Virus record (IMG/VR): IMGVR_UViG_3300006030_000109
Span: 1-23,638 of that record
Length of the DNA: 23,638 nt
Origin: a virus
Direction: 5' to 3' (one strand)
How positions within the stretch are numbered: the stretch's first letter is position 1; every line of letters starts with the position of its first letter. Of this stretch, positions 5,971-21,000 are shown piece after piece. Below the pieces are notes generated by a model, which saw nothing but the letters and a program-made list of their open reading frames with translations, was not told the origin of the DNA and ran no database searches. The position numbers and the translations under genes are program-made.

Positions 5971-7497
5971 ATGGCCGCTACGTCCCTCAAGGCGCGGTAC
6001 GACAACCTCGCTATGCGGCGCGATCCGTTCCTGCGTCGCGCGCGGGAGTACGCGGCCCTCACGATCCCGTCGCTGCTCCCTCCGGTCGGTCACAACTCCA
6101 GCCAACGCCTTCCCGAGCCCTACCAAGGCTTCGGCGCGCGAGCGACCGTCAACCTGTCCTCGCGCCTCCAGCACGCGCTGCTGCCTGCCGGCCAGAGTTG
6201 CTTCCGGTACCGGGTCCCCAATTCCCTGCTCCTGAAGGCCAAGACCATGGCCCCCTCGGCGGAAGTCGAGCGCGGCTTGGCGATGAGCGAGAAGCTCGTC
6301 ATGTCGGAGATCGAGAACCGCAACTGGCGTCAAGCCACGTCGCTGTCCATTCAGCTTCTGATCGTCACGGGCAACGTGCTCGAGGTCATGCTGCCGGACA
6401 ACTCGATCCGGGTGTTCAGGCTTGACCAGTACGTGGTCGTGCGGGATCACGCGGGTAACCTCGTCGAGGTCATCACCGAAGAGAAGCTGTCGCCGCTGGC
6501 GCTCCCCGAAGAAGCGCAGGGCATGGTCGACCCCAAGAAGCTCGCCGATGCGGGCAGCGAGGTCGAGCTCTTTACCTGCTACAAGCGCCAGCCTGACGGG
6601 GCCTACAAGACCTGGCAGCAGCTGGAAGGCAAAACCGTCCCGAAGTCCCGCGGCACGTACGCGAATCAAGATCAACTTCCGGTCTTCGCGATCCGCTGGG
6701 CGGCGGTGCCGTGCGAGGACTACGGCCGCGGTAAGGTCGAAGAGCACGTTGCGGACCTGAGGACCCTCGAGGTCTACCGCAAGTCGATGATCGAGGGCGC
6801 AGCGATGGCTGCGCGCCACATCACGCTCGTGCGCCCGAACGCTGCCGGTGGCAACCTGCGTCAGCGCATCGCCAAGGCGAACAACGGCGACGTCATCCCG
6901 GGCAATCCAGACGACGTCCACATGCTCCAGTTCGAGAACGTGGCGGGACTGCAGATCGTCCAGCAGGACATCGCGGCGCTCCTCCCAGGTCTCTCGGCGG
7001 CGTTCCTCATGGTCGGCGACATGCGCCGCGACGCGGAGCGCGTCACCGCCACCGAACTGCGGATGCTCGCAGAGGAACTCGAAGGGGCCCTTGGCGGGGT
7101 CTATTCGCTCCTCGCGGCGGAAATGCAGAAGCGGCGCATCACCCGTCTCACGTACCAGATGCAGAAGCAGCGGAAGCTCCCCGAGTGGCCGAAAGGCATG
7201 ATCGAGGCGCAGATCACCACTGGCTTGGAAGCCCTCGGCCGGCAGGAAGATGTCCGCAAGGTTCTCCAGGCTGGCGAGATCGTGAAGGGAATGCCGGGCT
7301 CGGAGATGTACGTCAAGTTCAACGAACTACTGCAGATCGCGTTCAGCGGCATCGGCCTTCCGAATGCCGTGCGTACCGAAGCTGAAGTGCAAGAAGCACA
7401 GCAGCAGCAACTCGCAGCCGAAGCGTTGAGCTCCGGCGCGGGACAAGCACTCGGCGCTGCCGGTAAGGCGGCGATGCAGCAACCGACAGGGGCTTAA
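5971..7497 (+). CDS. Portal / head-to-tail connector protein (T7 gp8-like)
   Basis: A 508-residue portal protein of the T7 head-tail connector family; T7 gp8 has 536. Twelve copies form the vertex through which DNA is packaged and ejected and to which the tail is attached. The conserved N-terminus is clear: SLKARYDNLAMRRDPFLRRA, then PSLLPP, then an LPEPYQGFGARATVNLSSRL block and ALLPAG. Further on are the DYGRGKVEEHVADLRTLE core helix and the MRRDAERVTATELRMLAEEL segment typical of the stem and clip region. The C-terminus is Gln/Ala-rich. Its stop codon overlaps the scaffold start (TAATG). Confidence 0.96.
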   Translation: MAATSLKARYDNLAMRRDPFLRRAREYAALTIPSLLPPVGHNSSQRLPEPYQGFGARATVNLSSRLQHALLPAGQSCFRYRVPNSLLLKAKTMAPSAEVERGLAMSEKLVMSEIENRNWRQATSLSIQLLIVTGNVLEVMLPDNSIRVFRLDQYVVVRDHAGNLVEVITEEKLSPLALPEEAQGMVDPKKLADAGSEVELFTCYKRQPDGAYKTWQQLEGKTVPKSRGTYANQDQLPVFAIRWAAVPCEDYGRGKVEEHVADLRTLEVYRKSMIEGAAMAARHITLVRPNAAGGNLRQRIAKANNGDVIPGNPDDVHMLQFENVAGLQIVQQDIAALLPGLSAAFLMVGDMRRDAERVTATELRMLAEELEGALGGVYSLLAAEMQKRRITRLTYQMQKQRKLPEWPKGMIEAQITTGLEALGRQEDVRKVLQAGEIVKGMPGSEMYVKFNELLQIAFSGIGLPNAVRTEAEVQEAQQQQLAAEALSSGAGQALGAAGKAAMQQPTGA

Positions 7498-8303
7498 TGA
7501 GCCAGCAGCAACAGCAGGATGCGATGCCCGCGAAGGGCACGCCAGAGTACAACCAGCGGATGGTTGAGCTCTTCGAGAAGCAGGGTGGACAGTTCGACCC
7601 CAACACGCAGAGGTTCGTCCTCCCTTCGCAGCCCGGGGACCGCCCCGAGTGGCTCCCCGAGAAGTTCTTCGACAAGGACAAGGGTCCCAACTACGAGGCC
7701 CTGGCGAAGTCCTACGCCGAGCTCGAGAAGGGCCGCGGCAAGGCCCCGCCGGCCGGTCCCGCCAAGGGCGGGGACCCGGCGGAGTCTGCCGTCGCCAGCG
7801 CAGGGCTCGATTGGGACACCTTGGGCCAGAAGGTGGCGACCACCGGCACCATCGAGGACGCCGATTACCAAGCTCTCGAGAAGGCTGGGATCCCCAAGCA
7901 CGTTGTCGACGGCTACATCGCAAACACGAAAGTGGCCCAAGCGGCCGCGCGTGAGCGCAGCGCAAAGCACGTCGGCGGCGAAGACGTCCTGAAGCACATC
8001 ATGGAGCGCGCCGGCAAGGAGCTCTCGAAGGAAGAGGTCGCTGCGTTCAACGCGCAACTCGCCAACGAGAAGACGTGGTCGGCGGCGCTGGATGTGCTGA
8101 AGGCGAAGTTCGCCCCGGCGGACGGCGAGCCTCTCGGTCAACTCGGCGGCGGCAACGGCAGCGGTACGCCTGTCGGCTTCCAGAGCGCCTTCGAGCAGTC
8201 CGAGGCGATCAACAAGCGCGACGCGCAAGGTCGCAAGCTGTACGACGTGGATCAGGCGTACCGCGCCCAGGTCCGCGCGCGGATCGCCGTCTCGGCGTTC
8301 TGA
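7497..8303 (+). CDS. Capsid assembly scaffolding protein (T7 gp9-like)
   Basis: A 268-residue acidic scaffold that guides prohead assembly and leaves the head. Diagnostic is RPEWLPEKFFDKDKGPNYEA followed by LAKSYAELEKGRG, the signature segment of T7-type scaffolds. A flexible Pro/Ala/Gly linker and an alpha-helical C-terminal half follow, and the last 30 residues are basic (KRDAQGRKLYDV ... RAQVRARIAV), fitting the helix-turn-helix capsid-binding end of scaffolds. The Gln-rich N-terminus begins at an ATG overlapping the portal stop. A 336-base non-coding stretch follows, unusual for this compact genome. Confidence 0.93.
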   Translation: MSQQQQQDAMPAKGTPEYNQRMVELFEKQGGQFDPNTQRFVLPSQPGDRPEWLPEKFFDKDKGPNYEALAKSYAELEKGRGKAPPAGPAKGGDPAESAVASAGLDWDTLGQKVATTGTIEDADYQALEKAGIPKHVVDGYIANTKVAQAAARERSAKHVGGEDVLKHIMERAGKELSKEEVAAFNAQLANEKTWSAALDVLKAKFAPADGEPLGQLGGGNGSGTPVGFQSAFEQSEAINKRDAQGRKLYDVDQAYRAQVRARIAVSAF

Positions 8304-8639
8304 CCACGAAGCACTGATTCGCGCCGCCGAATAGCGGCCGTCACCGGAGCGTCATCCCGGCCAGCGTCCCGGCACATCCCGGGGCGCTCTCTCAAGCGTT
8401 AGGCGTCAGCGTACGACACGCCGAAGCGCTTCAGAGAGCGCACAGCGCTCCACCCCTCGCGGGGCTCCCACACCGCCCAACGGCAAGTCTCACACCGCGT
8501 TCCCCGGGAAGGGCACGCAGCGTGGGCTCTCCGTGACTCACCGAACACCTTGGCCCTGCTACGGCGGGACAACCTTGCGTGGTGCGGATGACGTCGAAGT
8601 CCAGCAGTTCTTCAACTTCACCACCAGCAAGGAAACACC
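8304..8639 (+). other. 336-base structured non-coding region
   Basis: I see no convincing gene here on either strand. What it holds: three TCCCGG copies at 8355, 8367 and 8377; a long imperfect hairpin (8384-8441); a competing hairpin that reuses its right arm (8436-8450); and a small CCCC/GGGG hairpin (8453-8464). The final 175 bases have no obvious structure and end in the ribosome site AAGGAA (8629-8634) of the next gene. No T-tract follows the hairpins. Confidence 0.6.
8384..8441 (+). repeat. Long imperfect hairpin upstream of the decoration gene
   Basis: Arms 8384-8398 (GCGCTCTCTCAAGCG) and 8427-8441 (CGCTTCAGAGAGCGC) pair at 14 of 15 positions. Inside, GGCGT (8402-8406) pairs with ACGCC (8418-8422), making one extended 58-base stem-loop. 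The right arm can instead pair with GCGCTC at 8445-8450 (stem 8436-8441, loop ACA). No T-run follows, so an RNase III site or structured RNA fits better than a terminator. Confidence 0.7.
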
Positions 8640-9137
8640 ATGGCGCACATTTCCGGCCACGCAGCCGCGAAGTATGACCAGTTCGTGCAGAGCGTGGACG
8701 CCTCGACGGCGTTCAACGTCGGCGCGGACTTTGGCGGTCAGGGCCCGATGCCCGTCGGCCGCAAGGCGTTCACCGAACTCTCGAACTCCGACACCATCAT
8801 GGTGCGCGCGACGTCGCAGTCCAACCCCCGTAACTGGGAGGTGGGCCTGTACACGTACACGTCGAGCACCAAGACCCTGGCCCGCACGACCATCCTCGAG
8901 TCCAGCAACTCGAACAGCGCCGTGGACTTCTCCGCGGCGGGCGTGGCCGGCTCGGTCCGCCTCGAGGGCCTGTCCCTCGTCGCTTCGACCGCCAATGCCT
9001 ACACGATCACCCAGATCGCCTCGGCCGGCCGCACGGTCGCCGCGAACAGCACCACGGCCAACGACGGCGTGAAGCTCGCGTGCGCCATCGTGCAAGACCT
9101 GGTCGCTGCCGGTATCCTCAAGGGCTCGATCTCGTAA
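8640..9137 (+). CDS. Probable head decoration or head fibre protein
   Basis: A 165-residue Ser/Thr/Ala-rich protein between scaffold and major capsid genes. Residues 65-100 follow a beta pattern common in phage surface and fibre proteins: NWEVGLYTYTSSTKTLARTT, then ILESSNSNSAVDFSA. The C-terminus (VKLACAIVQDLVAAGILKG) resembles the short helix that closes head fibre proteins of other phages. T7 has no gene at this place. A good ribosome site (AAGGAA) lies five bases before the ATG. A capsid surface role is inferred from gene position and the fibre-like motif; a tail or assembly role is not excluded. Confidence 0.6.
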   Translation: MAHISGHAAAKYDQFVQSVDASTAFNVGADFGGQGPMPVGRKAFTELSNSDTIMVRATSQSNPRNWEVGLYTYTSSTKTLARTTILESSNSNSAVDFSAAGVAGSVRLEGLSLVASTANAYTITQIASAGRTVAANSTTANDGVKLACAIVQDLVAAGILKGSIS

Positions 9138-9226: not shown

Positions 9227-9404
9227 ATGGCGTTCGGAGATCCCTCCAACCCGGCGCGCTTTGGCTACGGCCAGAGCGTGTCCGATGACCGCAACCTCTT
9301 CCTGAAGGTCTTCGGCGGCGAAGTCCTCGCGGCCTTCAGCGAAGCGGTGGTGACCCTCGACAAGCATCAGGTCAAGACCATCACCAGCGGCAAGTCCTTC
9401 CAGT
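9227..9404 (+). CDS. Major capsid protein, exon 1 (T7 gp10-like)
   Basis: Codons 1-59 plus the first base of codon 60 of the major capsid gene. ATG 9227 is preceded by AAAGGA six bases upstream. The segment RNLFLKVFGGEVLAAF (22-37) is the conserved N-arm of T7-like capsid proteins, and TITSGKSFQ (51-59) is the start of the conserved SGKS...FP block. Reading on without splicing gives TAA at 9404-9406, so the unspliced product would be a 59-residue fragment. The last seven bases (TTCCAGT) pair with an internal guide in the intron. Confidence 0.9.
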
Positions 9405-10009
9405 AAACCCTTCGGAGAGCTGGAGTAAAACCGTCTTAACTGCTGGAAACCCTCTCGTAGGCAATCAGCAGCCAAGCCCGACCTAACGGCGGGAAGGTTC
9501 AACGACTAGGGCGCAAGCCCGTAGATTCAAGCGAATCGAAATGGATGGCACACCGAAAGTGTGCCGCCTGTGTGGGACTGAAAAGCCCCTCAGTGACTTC
9601 TATTCTCGATCCGACACCGGCCGGCACAGAAACGAGTGCCGCGAGTGTTTGATCGAAGCGCACCGCTACAAGAAGCTCGGCGTGTGCAACACTGAGTATC
9701 ACAAGATGCTCGCAGCGCAAGGTGGGAAGTGCTCCATCTGCCGCTGCACCCTCAACTCCTCGCGGTACACCAAGTTCTCGGTCGATCACGACCACAGGAC
9801 CGGTGTCGTTCGCGGACTGCTCTGCAGCCCGTGCAACGTCGCGCTAGGGATGATGAAGGACAGCCCGCGACGCCTTGAGGCGGCGGCTGAGTATCTCCGG
9901 CGGCATGGTTGTGAAGATATAGTCTGATCTGCACGGCGACGTGCAGCGGGAGCGTAAGGCTCCGGCAGCGGGTGCGAACCGCTGTGAACACCAAGGCTTT
10001 CCAGAAATG
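9405..10009 (+). ncRNA. Group I intron in the major capsid gene
   Basis: About 605 bases with the conserved parts of a self-splicing group I intron. P1 pairs exon end TTCCAGT (9398-9404) with guide GCTGGAG (9419-9425), with the U.G pair at the splice site. P4 is CTGCTG (9440-9445) with CAGCAG (9466-9471). The R element GGTTCAACGACTA (9496-9508) pairs through GACTA with TAGTC (9920-9924) of the S element AAGATATAGTCT to form P7, the guanosine site. After R are two small hairpins (9509-9520, 9524-9537) as in subgroup IA. After S are P9-type hairpins (9929-9946, 9949-9963, 9966-9984). The intron ends in G10009. CTTCGG (9410-9415) can pair with CCGAAG of exon 2 as P10. I could not place P3 and P8 with certainty. 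Confidence 0.92.
9541..9927 (+). CDS. Intron-encoded endonuclease VII-like (HNH) homing endonuclease
   Basis: A 128-residue zinc-bound His-Me finger nuclease of the recombination endonuclease VII family. An N-terminal treble-clef pair, CRLC and CREC (Cys8, Cys11, Cys33, Cys36), is followed by the nuclease core: CSIC (Cys64, Cys67), VDHDHRTGVVRGLLC (81-95, with catalytic His83/His85 region), and CSPCN (Cys95, Cys98, Asn99). The C-terminal helix LEAAAEYLRRHG is typical. It lies inside the capsid intron, so its likely job is to cut intronless capsid genes and start intron homing. There is no good ribosome site before the ATG, which fits low expression. Its last codons overlap the intron S element. 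Confidence 0.93.
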   Translation: MDGTPKVCRLCGTEKPLSDFYSRSDTGRHRNECRECLIEAHRYKKLGVCNTEYHKMLAAQGGKCSICRCTLNSSRYTKFSVDHDHRTGVVRGLLCSPCNVALGMMKDSPRRLEAAAEYLRRHGCEDIV

Positions 10010-10806
10010 TCCCGAAGACCTGGAAAGCGACCGCCGAGTACCACACGGCCGGCCAAGAGATGCTCGGCAACGACATCGACACCACGGAAGTGACCGTCAC
10101 CGTCGACGGCCTGCTGGTCGCGCACACCGCGATCTACGACCTCGACGCGAAGATGTCCCACTTCGATGTGACCTCGCAGTTCTCGCAAGAGCTCGGCAAG
10201 GCGGTCGCCAAGGCGTTCGACAAGAACGTCTTCCGTGCGATCATCCTCGGTGCGCGCACCGCGGCCGACGGTCCGTTCCCGGCGGGTAACACCGTCACCG
10301 ACTCGTCCCTGACGAACTCAGGCACCATCGATGGCAAGACGTGGATCGACGCGATCCGCACCGCGCGCATCAACATGTTCAACAAGGACGTCCCCGAGGA
10401 CGCCCCGATGTACATGGCGGTGAACGCTGCCGTGTTCGACGCGATCAAGTACGCGAAGGACTCGAACGGCAACTACCTGTACATCCACAAGGACCTGGGC
10501 GACCTGAGCACGAAGAACCGTGCCCAGACCATCGTGGTCGAGGACGTGCAGATCCTGCGTTCGCGCCTGATGCCGACGGCCAACGAGACGTCCGACACTT
10601 CGGTGTACCCGAAGTACCGGGCGAACTACTCGACGACCACGGGTGTCCTGTGGGTGCCGCAAGCGGTCGCCACCGTCAAGCTCGCCGAACTGGCGATGGA
10701 GACGCAGCGCGACGTCCGCCGGCAGGAAGACTTCATGGTCGCCAAGATGGCCGCAGGCACGGACAAGCTCCGCCCCGAGGCTTGCGTCGAGTTCAAAACC
10801 TCCTAA
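10010..10806 (+). CDS. Major capsid protein, exon 2 (T7 gp10-like)
   Basis: The rest of the major capsid gene. Joined to exon 1 it gives 324 residues (T7 gp10A has 345), an HK97-fold shell subunit. The junction codon becomes TTC, restoring SGKSFQFPKTWKATAEYHTA. Recognisable T7-type blocks are EVTVTVDGLLVAHTAIYDLD (E-loop to P-domain), FDVTSQFSQELGKAVAKAFD, and near the end VATVKLAELAMETQRDVRRQ and AGTDKLRPEAC, equivalent to the conserved GGLRPEAAG end of gp10. A gene caller would probably start this protein at ATG 10060 and lose the N-arm and E-loop start; that shorter model is not correct. The last codons TTC AAA ACC resemble the T7 frameshift neighbourhood. Confidence 0.95.
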
Positions 10807-10813
10807 GAGGCGT

Positions 10814-10852
10814 GAGGGGACTGGGTGCGTACGCGCTAGGTCCCCTCTTTTT
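10814..10852 (+). terminator. Intrinsic terminator after the capsid gene (T-phi-like position)
   Basis: GAGGGGAC (10814-10821) pairs perfectly with GTCCCCTC (10840-10847), with an inner GTGC/GCGC stem around GTAC, and is followed by five T residues (10848-10852). In T7 the main late terminator T-phi also lies directly after gene 10, lowering transcription of the tail genes relative to capsid. Confidence 0.85.
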
Positions 10853-10868
10853 CCCACAAGGAGATCCA

Positions 10869-11162
10869 ATGGCCCTCGGCCTGAACGTCCGCAAGTTCCA
10901 GTTTCAAGCAGCGGCCGGCAACATCTGGGAAGTCATCCTCACCGAAGCGACGAGCGGGGCCGTCAGCGGCATCGGCCGGCGCGTCGAAGGCGACGACCCG
11001 TCGTTCGACGACACCGAAGTGTCCTTTGTGGTCATCACCACGAAGGTTGACAAGGTGTTCGGCACGGGCGCGCAACTCGACACGACCCTGGCGCACGCGG
11101 CGTACTACGACGCCTCGAACGTCGGCGGCGCGGGTGCGGCGCTGTCCACGCTCCTCACGTAA
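10869..11162 (+). CDS. Small structural protein candidate downstream of the capsid gene
   Basis: A 97-residue protein of unknown family, with AAGGAG five bases before its ATG. It has alternating beta-type strands (NIWEVILTEATSG, VSFVVITTKVDKVFGT) and no membrane segment or Cys, fitting a small virion component such as a capsid decoration or head-completion protein. It lies between two terminator hairpins, so its expression is likely set separately. The frame is also open upstream, without stop, back into the capsid gene, where it is the -1 frame; a capsid fusion by frameshift is therefore possible but unproven. Confidence 0.7.
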   Translation: MALGLNVRKFQFQAAAGNIWEVILTEATSGAVSGIGRRVEGDDPSFDDTEVSFVVITTKVDKVFGTGAQLDTTLAHAAYYDASNVGGAGAALSTLLT

Positions 11163-18000: not shown

Positions 18001-21000
18001 ATGGCTGATCCGACCATTGCAGTCCCCGTGACGTCCCCTGTCGCCCAAGAGCGCCCCGTAGCGCCCACTCGCGACACCGTTGTGGAGGACATGAAGGCCC
18101 CCACGGCCCTCGAGACCGCCGCAGCGATGTGGCGTCGCGACACCGTGCTGGGCGCTGCGCTGGCCGAGTTCAGCATGGCGGAGGACACCGGGGAGTTCGA
18201 CCCGGGCTTCAACCCGTACTCGCATTTCGCGGCCAACAAGGTCCGCATGGTGGACCTCGAGCCGTGGCTCCGGCGCGGGGCGTTCGACTACGCGAAGAAC
18301 GAGGCTGACTTTGGCCGCATCGCTGCGCGGATCCGGACGCAGACGGAAGACCTCAAAACCATCGAGCAGGGCTCCGGATGGGGCCTGGCGCTGGGCATGG
18401 GGCTGTCGCTAGTGGATGTGATGACCCTCGTCCCGTTCGCCAAGGCGGGCACGGGCGGGGCGGTCGCCAACGCTCTGCGCGTCGGGGCGTCCGGAGCGGC
18501 CATCGCCACGGTGCAGGAGAGCGCGCTGCACGCACTGCAACCGACCCGCACCGAGACGGAGTCGTTCCTCAACATCGGCCTGACGACGGCGCTGGCCGGC
18601 GGCATCGGGGTGTTCGCCTCGGCGCTGCACCCGGCCGCGCCGCTCAACCCGGCGAACAAGCCGGCGCTGGACCCCTCCGCGCCCCCGCCGATTGGCTCCG
18701 CGCTCCCGGGGATGGCGCGGGAGGAGGCCGACACCGTGGGCTCCGTGGGTGCTGCCAGCGCCCGCGTGACGGCCGGGACGGAGCCCGTAACAGGCACCAA
18801 CGCCCTGCAACGCGGGGCCCTCAAGGTCGGCCAGTGGCTCTCCGCGGTGACCCCCACCGGGCGCGCCACCGCGTGGACCTCACAGGTGGCCCGCAGTGTC
18901 ACCCAAGGCCTATTCGACCTGGGCGGGATCTTCACCCGCCACATGGAGGAAGGCGTCGCCCACCGGGCTGGCGCAGAGGACATCATGCGGGACCTCATGG
19001 GCGCTCGGGATGAGATCCAGCAGTCCCTGATCGACGGCTTCCGGCAGATGCAAGTCGACATGGGCGTCACCGGGAGCACCGCGGCGGCGACCATCAAGTC
19101 CGACGTGAACCTCATGGGCTCCATCGTGGGCCAGAAGAAGTTCCTGAACACCGGGATCTCCGAGGACGAGTTCCACGAGATCGTCCGCCGCAAGGTGACC
19201 AACACCTGGTGGCAACAGGGCGGACTCTGGAAGATCGCCGAGCCGGACGGGAAGTGGTTCGCCAAGATCACCGAAGGGCTGGACCCGAAGGCCGTCGAGG
19301 TCATCGAGCGCCACACCGACCGTGTGGCGAAGCTCCTGCAAGCCAAGGCGCTCGAGCAGGAAGAGGCGATGTTCCGTGCGGGCATGATCACGGAGAAGCA
19401 GCGGCTCGGGAAGAAGTACGGGCTCGCGCAACTGTGGGACAAGGGGCACGTCCAGCTTAACAAGCAGGAGCTCCGCGGTCTCCTGCTTCAGGTGTTCGAA
19501 GGCCGGCCCGACGAGGCTTGGCTGCTCGAGACGCACAACCTGAAGCTCGACGAGTGGAAAGCGCTGCCCGACCGGGCGCAGCCGAAGCTCGACGCCAGCG
19601 GCAAGCCTGTGAAGGACGCCGCAGGCAACACGGTGACTCAGCCGGGACGCCTCGACCTACTCGAGGAGTGGACCGGAGACCGCGCCGCGGTGGCGCTCGA
19701 GCGGGCCCGCGCGGCCCACGAAGCGGCCACGCAGCGCTATCTCGACTCGCTCGACATCAAGGAGCTCACCGACCTGGGCGTGAAGCTCGGGGAGCAGGAT
19801 CTCCGCAAGGCCCGCATGGGTGAACTGCGCGCCGCCATCCGGCAGCGCACCGCCGAGCTCGAGGTGAAGCGCCTCGAGGGCCTGAAGGCCGCAGCACTGG
19901 AGGCCGAAGGCAAGCTGGACGAGATCACCCGCACCATCGATGACCAGACGCGGCTTGCCGAAGAGGCGACCGCGCGCCGGGCGAAGATGGGTAACGACCT
20001 CGCCCCGCTGGGCGACCTCATCGCCGCCGCCAAGGCCACGAAGGCCGAAGCGTCGGACGTCCTGAGTTCCCTCCCGCGCGACCGGCAGGTGTCCCCGGAC
20101 TCCCTCGCGAACCTCCAGAAGACCCGCGAGGAATACGCGGCGGCGCTCGCCAAGGCCCGCCAGCAGTACAACGATGCGGTGCTGGCGCTGCGTCAGCGCG
20201 TCAAGGACATGCAGTTGAACGCCAAGTGGGTCGACGAGGCCGTGAAGCGCGTCGATGAGGCGAAGACTGCGAAGGCCTTGGGCGAAGGCAGCGAGGCGAT
20301 CAACATCATCGTCGAGCGGGAATCCGCGGCGCTGAAGAAGCTCACCGACAAGTTCGAGGCCGTGGCCAAGGTCCGCAAGGAAGCCTGGGAGGCCTACAAG
20401 GTTCTCCGCACGGGAGCGAAGGAAGCGAAGATCAGCGTCCGAGACGCCAAGAAAGGCCTCACCGCGGCCAACAAGGAGCAGGCGAAGGCTGCGCGCCAGG
20501 CCGCGATCATGGACACGGTCGAAGAGATCGTGGACGGCATCGGCGACAACGGGAAGGCCCCCAACGGCCTCCTGCGGGAGCTCGGCCAATCCGGCCGGGC
20601 CAAGGACCGCAGGATCATCCTGACGGATGACGAGCGGCGGATGTTCGAGGACCGCGGGTTCCTGCACAAGGACCTGACGTACGTGCTCGACCGGCAGTAC
20701 CGGGACATCTCCGCGCGCCTGGCGCTGCGTGAGGTGTACGGGGAGGAGTCCCTCGAGAAGACCCTGAAGTCCGTCTACGCCGACTACGAGAAGCTCGCAG
20801 CGGCGTCTCCCGAGAAGCGCGCGAAGCTCATGGCCGAGTACGCCGCGGTCGAGAAGGACGTGATGATGGGTCGGGACCGGATGCTCGGCATCGCTGGTCG
20901 TCCGGAGGATCCTGAATCGCTCGCGATGTGGGGCCTCTCCAAGCTGCGCCAGATGACGTACCTACGGTTCGCCGCGGGGTTCGTCGTCTCGTCCATCGTG

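Follow-up and report, generated by a model that had tools for sequence, protein, structure and literature searches.

The locus and its 336-base gap

The window, i.e. the whole 23,638-nt stretch of DNA analysed here, is part of a T7-like podovirus and is contained in a longer IMG/VR contig of 31,430 bases, IMGVR_UViG_3300006641_000103 (100% identity over the 13.5 kb compared, with both window ends present), which encodes a single-subunit RNA polymerase upstream. The tail genes lie downstream of the major capsid protein (MCP) gene, and the features referred to below are as follows.

537-2438: DNA polymerase gene
5971-7497: head-tail connector gene
7497-8303: scaffold gene
8304-8639, + strand: non-coding leader separating the scaffold gene from the first head gene; no GC3 periodicity, no database-supported open reading frame
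8384-8441, + strand: 58-base hairpin; beyond shuffles, no counterpart recognised in the relatives examined
8436-8450 and 8453-8464, + strand: competing hairpin and CCCC/GGGG hairpin; seen in the sequence, without comparative support
8541-8590, + strand: capsid-leader RNA element of about 48 nt (whole match to covariance model R3); model and covariation
GG 8552-8553 with CC 8573-8574, + strand: helix P1a, closing the core; outer pair C8549-G8577
C8554 opposite ACAA 8569-8572, + strand: asymmetric internal loop of the C/AYAA type
CCTGC 8555-8559 with GCGGG 8564-8568, + strand: helix P2, 5 bp
8560-8563, + strand: tetraloop TACG of the YNMG class, capping P2
8573-8584 with 8619-8632, + strand: downstream hairpin H2; predicted fold
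8640-9137, + strand: 165-aa gene ('head decoration'), the first gene behind the leader; homologues in relatives
9227-10806, + strand: MCP gene, interrupted by a group I intron; matches Pfam Gp10A-like and PHROG major head protein

The gap described by the first-pass annotation proved real, with the scaffold gene ending at 8303 and the 165-aa gene starting at 8640, and also non-coding, as its GC contents by codon position were 0.69/0.63/0.66 while the neighbouring genes reached 0.87-0.92 at position 3. A hidden gene was rejected on the missing codon signal and the missing protein match. Folding of the gap was better than that of its shuffles on both strands (z −2.3 on + and −3.7 on −), and the reported absence of T-tracts (no TTTT) and the three TCCCGG copies (8355, 8367 and 8377) were confirmed. 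The size contrast with other gaps held in that those measured at most 89 nt, except that 140 nt inside the group I intron exceeded the claimed limit of about 120; the length itself is nothing unusual, since long gaps are usual at the same place in 72 loci (window included), where the distance from the last long open reading frame to the head-gene start had a median of 216 nt and an upper quartile of 588. A sequence similarity search of the gap DNA against phages gave only one 30-base chance match, a tRNA/tmRNA search of the window gave none, and no convincing repeat of a phage promoter sharing sequence with the gap was found within the virus. An intrinsic terminator signature, namely a GC hairpin followed by a U-tract, was absent from the gap, and the proposed switch-like attenuator (terminator/anti-terminator) found no support, having neither a U-tract nor a conserved alternative pairing.

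The 58-base hairpin at 8384-8441 was present as described, with the arms GCGCTCTCTCAAGCG and CGCTTCAGAGAGCGC and 14 of 15 outer pairs formed. Its inverted-repeat score of 13.5 was equalled in 0 of 300 dinucleotide-preserving shuffles of the gap (best shuffle 12.5), and folded alone it yielded −34.6 kcal/mol (z −4.7), being a long irregular stem of the RNase III type. The competing hairpin GAGCGC-ACA-GCGCTC and the CCCC-TCGC-GGGG hairpin were likewise found at their places. However, no copy of the 58-base hairpin was recognised among the relatives inspected, and the gaps of the seven relatives with the same gene order measured only 104-222 nt, so that, compared with these, the hairpin and a large share of the upstream gap are additional sequence in the window; the hairpin is a private addition and perhaps a processing site. 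In predicted hairpin H2, the 3′ arm contains the Shine-Dalgarno AAGG (8629-8632) and the 5′ arm shares CC with P1a, a pairing that was not conserved in relatives.

Around the head genes of the window, a group I intron (RF00028, 9390-9946, E 1.9e-11) with an endonuclease VII open reading frame inside (9541-9927) interrupts the MCP gene, which is free of the intron in relative L037. The 165-aa protein had no Pfam or PHROG match; its residues 35-100 make up a domain common to proteins of many other viral contigs (L003-L023), and the RNA element described below was looked for at those loci and none was found.

A conserved RNA element before capsid genes

The initial searches with the connector, scaffold and decoration proteins returned almost only the same virus, and alignment queries were needed for relatives. 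Distant relatives were found by protein, and a common pattern was seen in the DNA just before their MCP genes. By connector alignment, 119 loci were gathered in IMG/VR and bacterial genomes, with the MCP start located in 98, named phages included. Most leaders shared a core in which a short stem carries a TGCG-like loop, is preceded by an unpaired C and followed by A[C/T]AA, and is enclosed by another short helix. A simple finder, which preferred the C and required AYAA, detected this core in 72 of 99 leaders (window included) versus 0-1 of 99 shuffled leaders, and in 5 of 95 or 1 of 93 MCP-gene stretches taken as a control. Among the matches, the internal C was present in 72/72, followed after the stem by ACAA in 58 and ATAA in 14, and the tetraloops were TGCG (50), TACG (9), TGAG (6), TTCG (2) and CGAG (2), all of the YNMG class, with other loops in 3 of 72. 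In alignment A3 the C, G, A and AA were invariant columns too.

Covariation was markedly higher than in shuffled alignments throughout. It scored 0.566 versus 0.219 ± 0.014 (0/500 shuffles) in the model-fitted alignment A4, with two-sided changes at all 10 pairs; 0.506 versus 0.231 ± 0.015 (0/500) in A5, a sequence-only model alignment not fitted to the structure; 0.593 versus 0.201 ± 0.011 (0/500) in A6, comprising 100 relatives; and 0.435 versus 0.160 ± 0.019 (0/500) in A8, comprising the window's own clade, which was found later and used in building no model. Slid partners gave a far lower covariation score than the true pairing. In A6, P2 was 98.7% paired, its three variable pairs having changed on both sides 31, 60 and 32 times, and P1a, i.e. 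the inner two P1 pairs, was formed in 97% of sequences by switching between G-C and A-U; outside P1a the next two positions were usually unpaired, and the outer C-G/U-A pair occurred in 86%. As the sequences in the alignments are related, the shuffle counts are not probabilities, and the argument therefore rests on the effect size and on its repetition in an independent clade.

Pairing was partly a criterion in choosing the samples for A3, A4 and the tree, so the scan that left the stem bases free carries the most weight. It applied the patterns TGACCNNNTGCGNNNGACAATC and TGGCCNNNTGCGNNNGACAACC, whose stem bases N may be any letter, to IMG/VR, and the number of copies listed is a lower bound. 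Among the matches listed, all three N pairs were complementary in 220 of 236, and the MCP start lay 36-141 nt downstream in 214 of 236, a contig edge intervening in 7. Of the 221 listed matches that adjoin a capsid gene or a contig end, 220 were fully complementary; the 15 listed matches elsewhere, with no MCP, had at most one of three pairs each, so that among the matches listed the folded form was confined to sites before capsid genes. When 112 phages were placed on an MCP tree, 30, 46 and 26 two-sided pair-keeping changes were counted at the three variable P2 pairs, in a sample forming 44 clusters at 60% identity for which P2 pairing was itself a selection criterion; related pairs in it had a median MCP identity of about 41%.

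Searching 32 kb of the virus on both strands, model R3 matched 8541-8590 with 29.8 bits (E=9e-6), the next best match scoring 12.4 bits. R3 was built from 100 relatives with the window left out, and its significant match in the window is therefore independent; model R1 includes the window, and its match there was not counted as evidence. The window copy has every part by which the element is defined, namely P2 with a YNMG loop, a C opposite AYAA, a two-pair closing helix, the position and the R3 match. Its AYAA starts 71 nt upstream of the ATG at 8640 on the same strand, within the 36-141 nt range. When 8538-8592 was folded alone the predicted core appeared, with an energy that was not exceptional (z −1.1).

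In the window's clade, a clade-specific connector alignment gave 79 further loci at 48-55% connector identity, with the MCP located in 64, and R3 matched 58 of these 64, once per locus and always on the gene strand. Inspection by eye recognised the core in five of the six missed loci (L433, L438, L441, L443 and L444) and a variant of it in the sixth, L419, which is the same contig as L037. Comparison thus establishes the fold, strand, place and conservation of the element, and a conserved fold in the gap, taken alone, is almost certain. The check that the first-pass annotation had proposed, namely base-pair covariation among related phages, gave a strongly positive result, but in a part of the gap different from the 58-base hairpin. 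The earlier reading as a structured leader RNA of the head genes is hence supported by comparison at 8541-8590, although its weight had been put on the private hairpin, and the conserved element had gone unlisted.

Distribution and position of the element

Hundreds of divergent T7-like phages and prophages carry the element 36-141 nt upstream of their head genes, as a rule in one copy per genome. It was present in RHEph01/RHEph21, TRX32-1, BB8 and CRP-804, in HTVC019P (R3, E=1.5e-8) and weakly in Syn5 (R3, E=0.016), and the carriers' hosts include rhizobia, Bordetella, Pelagibacter and Synechococcus. LUZ100 had only a weak, elongated form, scoring 14.6 bits with R1 and not listed with R3. No covariance-model match was obtained at the MCP leaders of T7 (head region searched), SP6, phiKMV, gh-1 and P-SSP7; by eye, P-SSP7 has a look-alike with ATAC instead of AYAA. 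Weak second matches away from the capsid leader (L057 10405-10452, L107 7136-7183 and L404 16551-16598; E 0.04-0.13) may be chance or second copies.

No Rfam 15 family matched the element above its gathering score. Judged by the comparative support, which is very strong, it is a widespread structured RNA matching no Rfam 15 family. No description of it was found in the open-access literature searched, and the word 'capsid' is missing from the main text of two large RNA-motif papers; within that scope the element appears to be unreported.

In seven clade loci a decoration-like gene, homologous to the 165-aa gene, lies between the scaffold and MCP genes as in the window, and there the element, or its variant in L037/L419, precedes the decoration-like gene and not the MCP gene (L433 and L438, both among the seven, have identical leaders). 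As far as gene order tells, the element stays at the front of the head-gene unit. That it stands before the inserted gene speaks for an effect on the mRNA, or on whichever gene comes first in it, rather than one exerted directly at the MCP start site.

Other structures were also observed near the element in relatives. A second hairpin of the AGCCGCACTGCG...CGCGGTGGCT type recurs upstream of it (L030 7916-7945, L031 ~7555-7585, L134 and L137), and in the marine clade a conserved hairpin AGTTGTGCAACC...AGGTGGCAACT lies upstream (L071, L077, L079, L103, L111, L114, L115 and L405, i.e. HTVC019P). In Syn5 (L404), a tRNA-like T-arm at 19842-19882 stands directly before the element (weak mascRNA-menRNA match, E 0.014), and a similar stretch was seen in P-SSP7.

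Proposed function and alternative readings

We read the gap as the 5′ leader of a late head-gene mRNA, with a cis-acting RNA element that would control the head genes, and assign this reading, built on sequence comparison, a probability of roughly 0.7. G-U pairs in both orientations and the YNMG loops point to an element acting as RNA. The gap would be transcribed by the phage's own single-subunit RNA polymerase, and the RNA would fold into the YNMG-capped P2, stacked via the C/AYAA internal loop on the short helix P1. Most likely the element would be bound by a protein of the phage or by a broadly conserved host factor, and the binding would set the amount of head protein via mRNA stability or translation of the first gene; in this scheme we infer that the window's phage transcribes the gap, that a protein binds the element and which way the effect goes. 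A protein recognition surface is suggested because the invariant C, AYAA and YNMG letters sit on freely varying stems, and a generic stabilising or RNase III hairpin is disfavoured because it would not need invariant letters and would be expected at other genes too. Because the fold is kept across capsid proteins of about 41% identity and hosts as varied as rhizobia, Bordetella, Pelagibacter and Synechococcus, something specific probably reads it. We tentatively propose, at somewhat less than even odds, an operator that either a structural protein of the phage (capsid or scaffold) or a near-universal host factor would use to set head-protein dosage in T7-like phages outside the T7/SP6/phiKMV groups. 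Against a control function, T7, SP6, phiKMV and gh-1 do without the element, and the LUZ100 copy is weak.

How the element might act was examined at the ribosome site. In 120 leaders the Shine-Dalgarno sequence was unpaired at 0.488 versus 0.498 with shuffled linkers, i.e. without difference, with the linker start offset by one base for loci from pattern scans. General occlusion of the ribosome site is thus unsupported and would not be a general mechanism. The linker from the element to the start was modestly more structured than its shuffles (mean z −1.06).

T7 R sites are RNase III processing sites, and the 58-base hairpin might similarly be a site whose cleavage frees a stable head-gene mRNA, with the element being part of the processed 5′ end. 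Its long near-perfect stem is beyond chance, the gh-1 annotation lists a putative RNase III stem-loop (R10) ahead of the MCP gene, and in LUZ100 one mapped 3′ end (T15) falls in a hairpin upstream of the weak element and another (T14) next to the start of tRNA-Asn. The LUZ100 ends may, however, represent termination, and with the hairpin unrecognised in the relatives inspected and gaps of just 104-222 nt in the seven of the same gene order, we regard processing of this kind as possible but rather unlikely. An RNA switch, in which an alternative fold would pair the 5′ or 3′ flank of the element to the ribosome-binding site, appears less likely still. In the window CCTTGC (8573-8578), sharing CC with P1a, can pair with GCAAGG at the start site, and in a marine clade there is complementarity, including some matched changes, between TTACCTTT located 5′ of the element and AAAGGTAA at the start site, the mean 5′-flank pairing score being 10.30 versus 9.33 ± 0.19 in shuffles (0/200), although related sequences can beat shuffles without function. 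Over all relatives 3′-flank pairing was not enriched (9.61 versus 9.56, the 3′-flank window being offset by one base for loci from pattern scans), and the accessibility of the ribosome site was unchanged, as given above.

A scar of a lost gene, tRNA or intron would concern only the upstream gap (~8304-8540) and is about as doubtful as the switch: the shorter gaps of the same-order relatives (104-222 nt), tRNAs before the MCP gene in 6 of 106 related loci and the group I intron one gene further on are consistent with it, but a tRNA, Rfam or protein remnant was looked for and none was found. That the conserved sequence is a DNA signal, i.e. a late phage promoter or an att site, is highly improbable. 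A late phage promoter is expected hereabouts, as with phi10 of T7 and phi7 of LUZ100; yet the element is usually single-copy per genome with no repeated motif elsewhere in the virus, its stem covaries with G-U pairs and carries RNA tetraloops, and the LUZ100 promoter lies ~440 nt upstream of the weak element.

T7-like phages serve as textbook models, with capsid-gene control understood as a matter of promoters, terminators and RNase III sites. An operator for a capsid or scaffold protein or a host factor, if true, would add an unrecognised control layer in a much-studied phage family. Its small size allows the element to be mutated stem by stem, which makes capsid-dosage control directly testable in culturable phages, and the culturable carriers include Rhizobium phage RHEph01, Bordetella phage BB8 and Pelagibacter phage HTVC019P. 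The R17/MS2 coat protein and T4 gp43 operators are short hairpins, located close to a structural or key gene, in which the loop letters are invariant; they overlap the ribosome site, whereas the present element lies upstream of it and combines the YNMG loop with the C/AYAA internal loop. The phi10 leader of T7 gene 10 is likewise structured and directly precedes the MCP gene in a T7-like phage, but it is ~62 nt behind its own promoter and contains no element copy by the covariance models. In the window's virus no repeated promoter-like motif was found. R10 of gh-1 is likewise a hairpin between the scaffold and MCP genes, but is annotated as a processing hairpin, and gh-1 has no element match. 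The manA and wcaG RNAs, candidate cis-regulatory RNAs of phages, are likewise covarying RNAs found by comparison in phage and marine sequences, yet they belong to different genes and different phage groups from the head-gene element (PMC2864571).

For LUZ100, a local phage promoter together with a strong terminator 3′ of the gene apparently governs the MCP gene, and the 3′ ends of this phage were analysed in −60/+40 windows (PMC10134795). The LUZ100 record places promoter phi7 at 20586-20635, ~440 nt upstream of the weak element, and this local promoter counts in favour of the leader reading. Taking the record's 100-base terminator features as −60/+40 windows, a rule supported by the U-run of T16 at the expected base, T15 falls at position 7922 of L030, in the hairpin arm upstream of the weak element, and T14 adjoins the tRNA-Asn start; by this analysis the two positions suggest leader processing. 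The T15 end also seems to fall inside the recurring second hairpin. In the window, a hairpin GAGGGGAC...GTCCCCTC followed by TTTTT lies directly 3′ of the capsid gene (10814-10852), the same position as that of Tphi in T7 and of the T16 terminator in LUZ100, and between the capsid and tail-tube genes a small 97-aa reading frame with a good codon signal was observed at 10869-11162.
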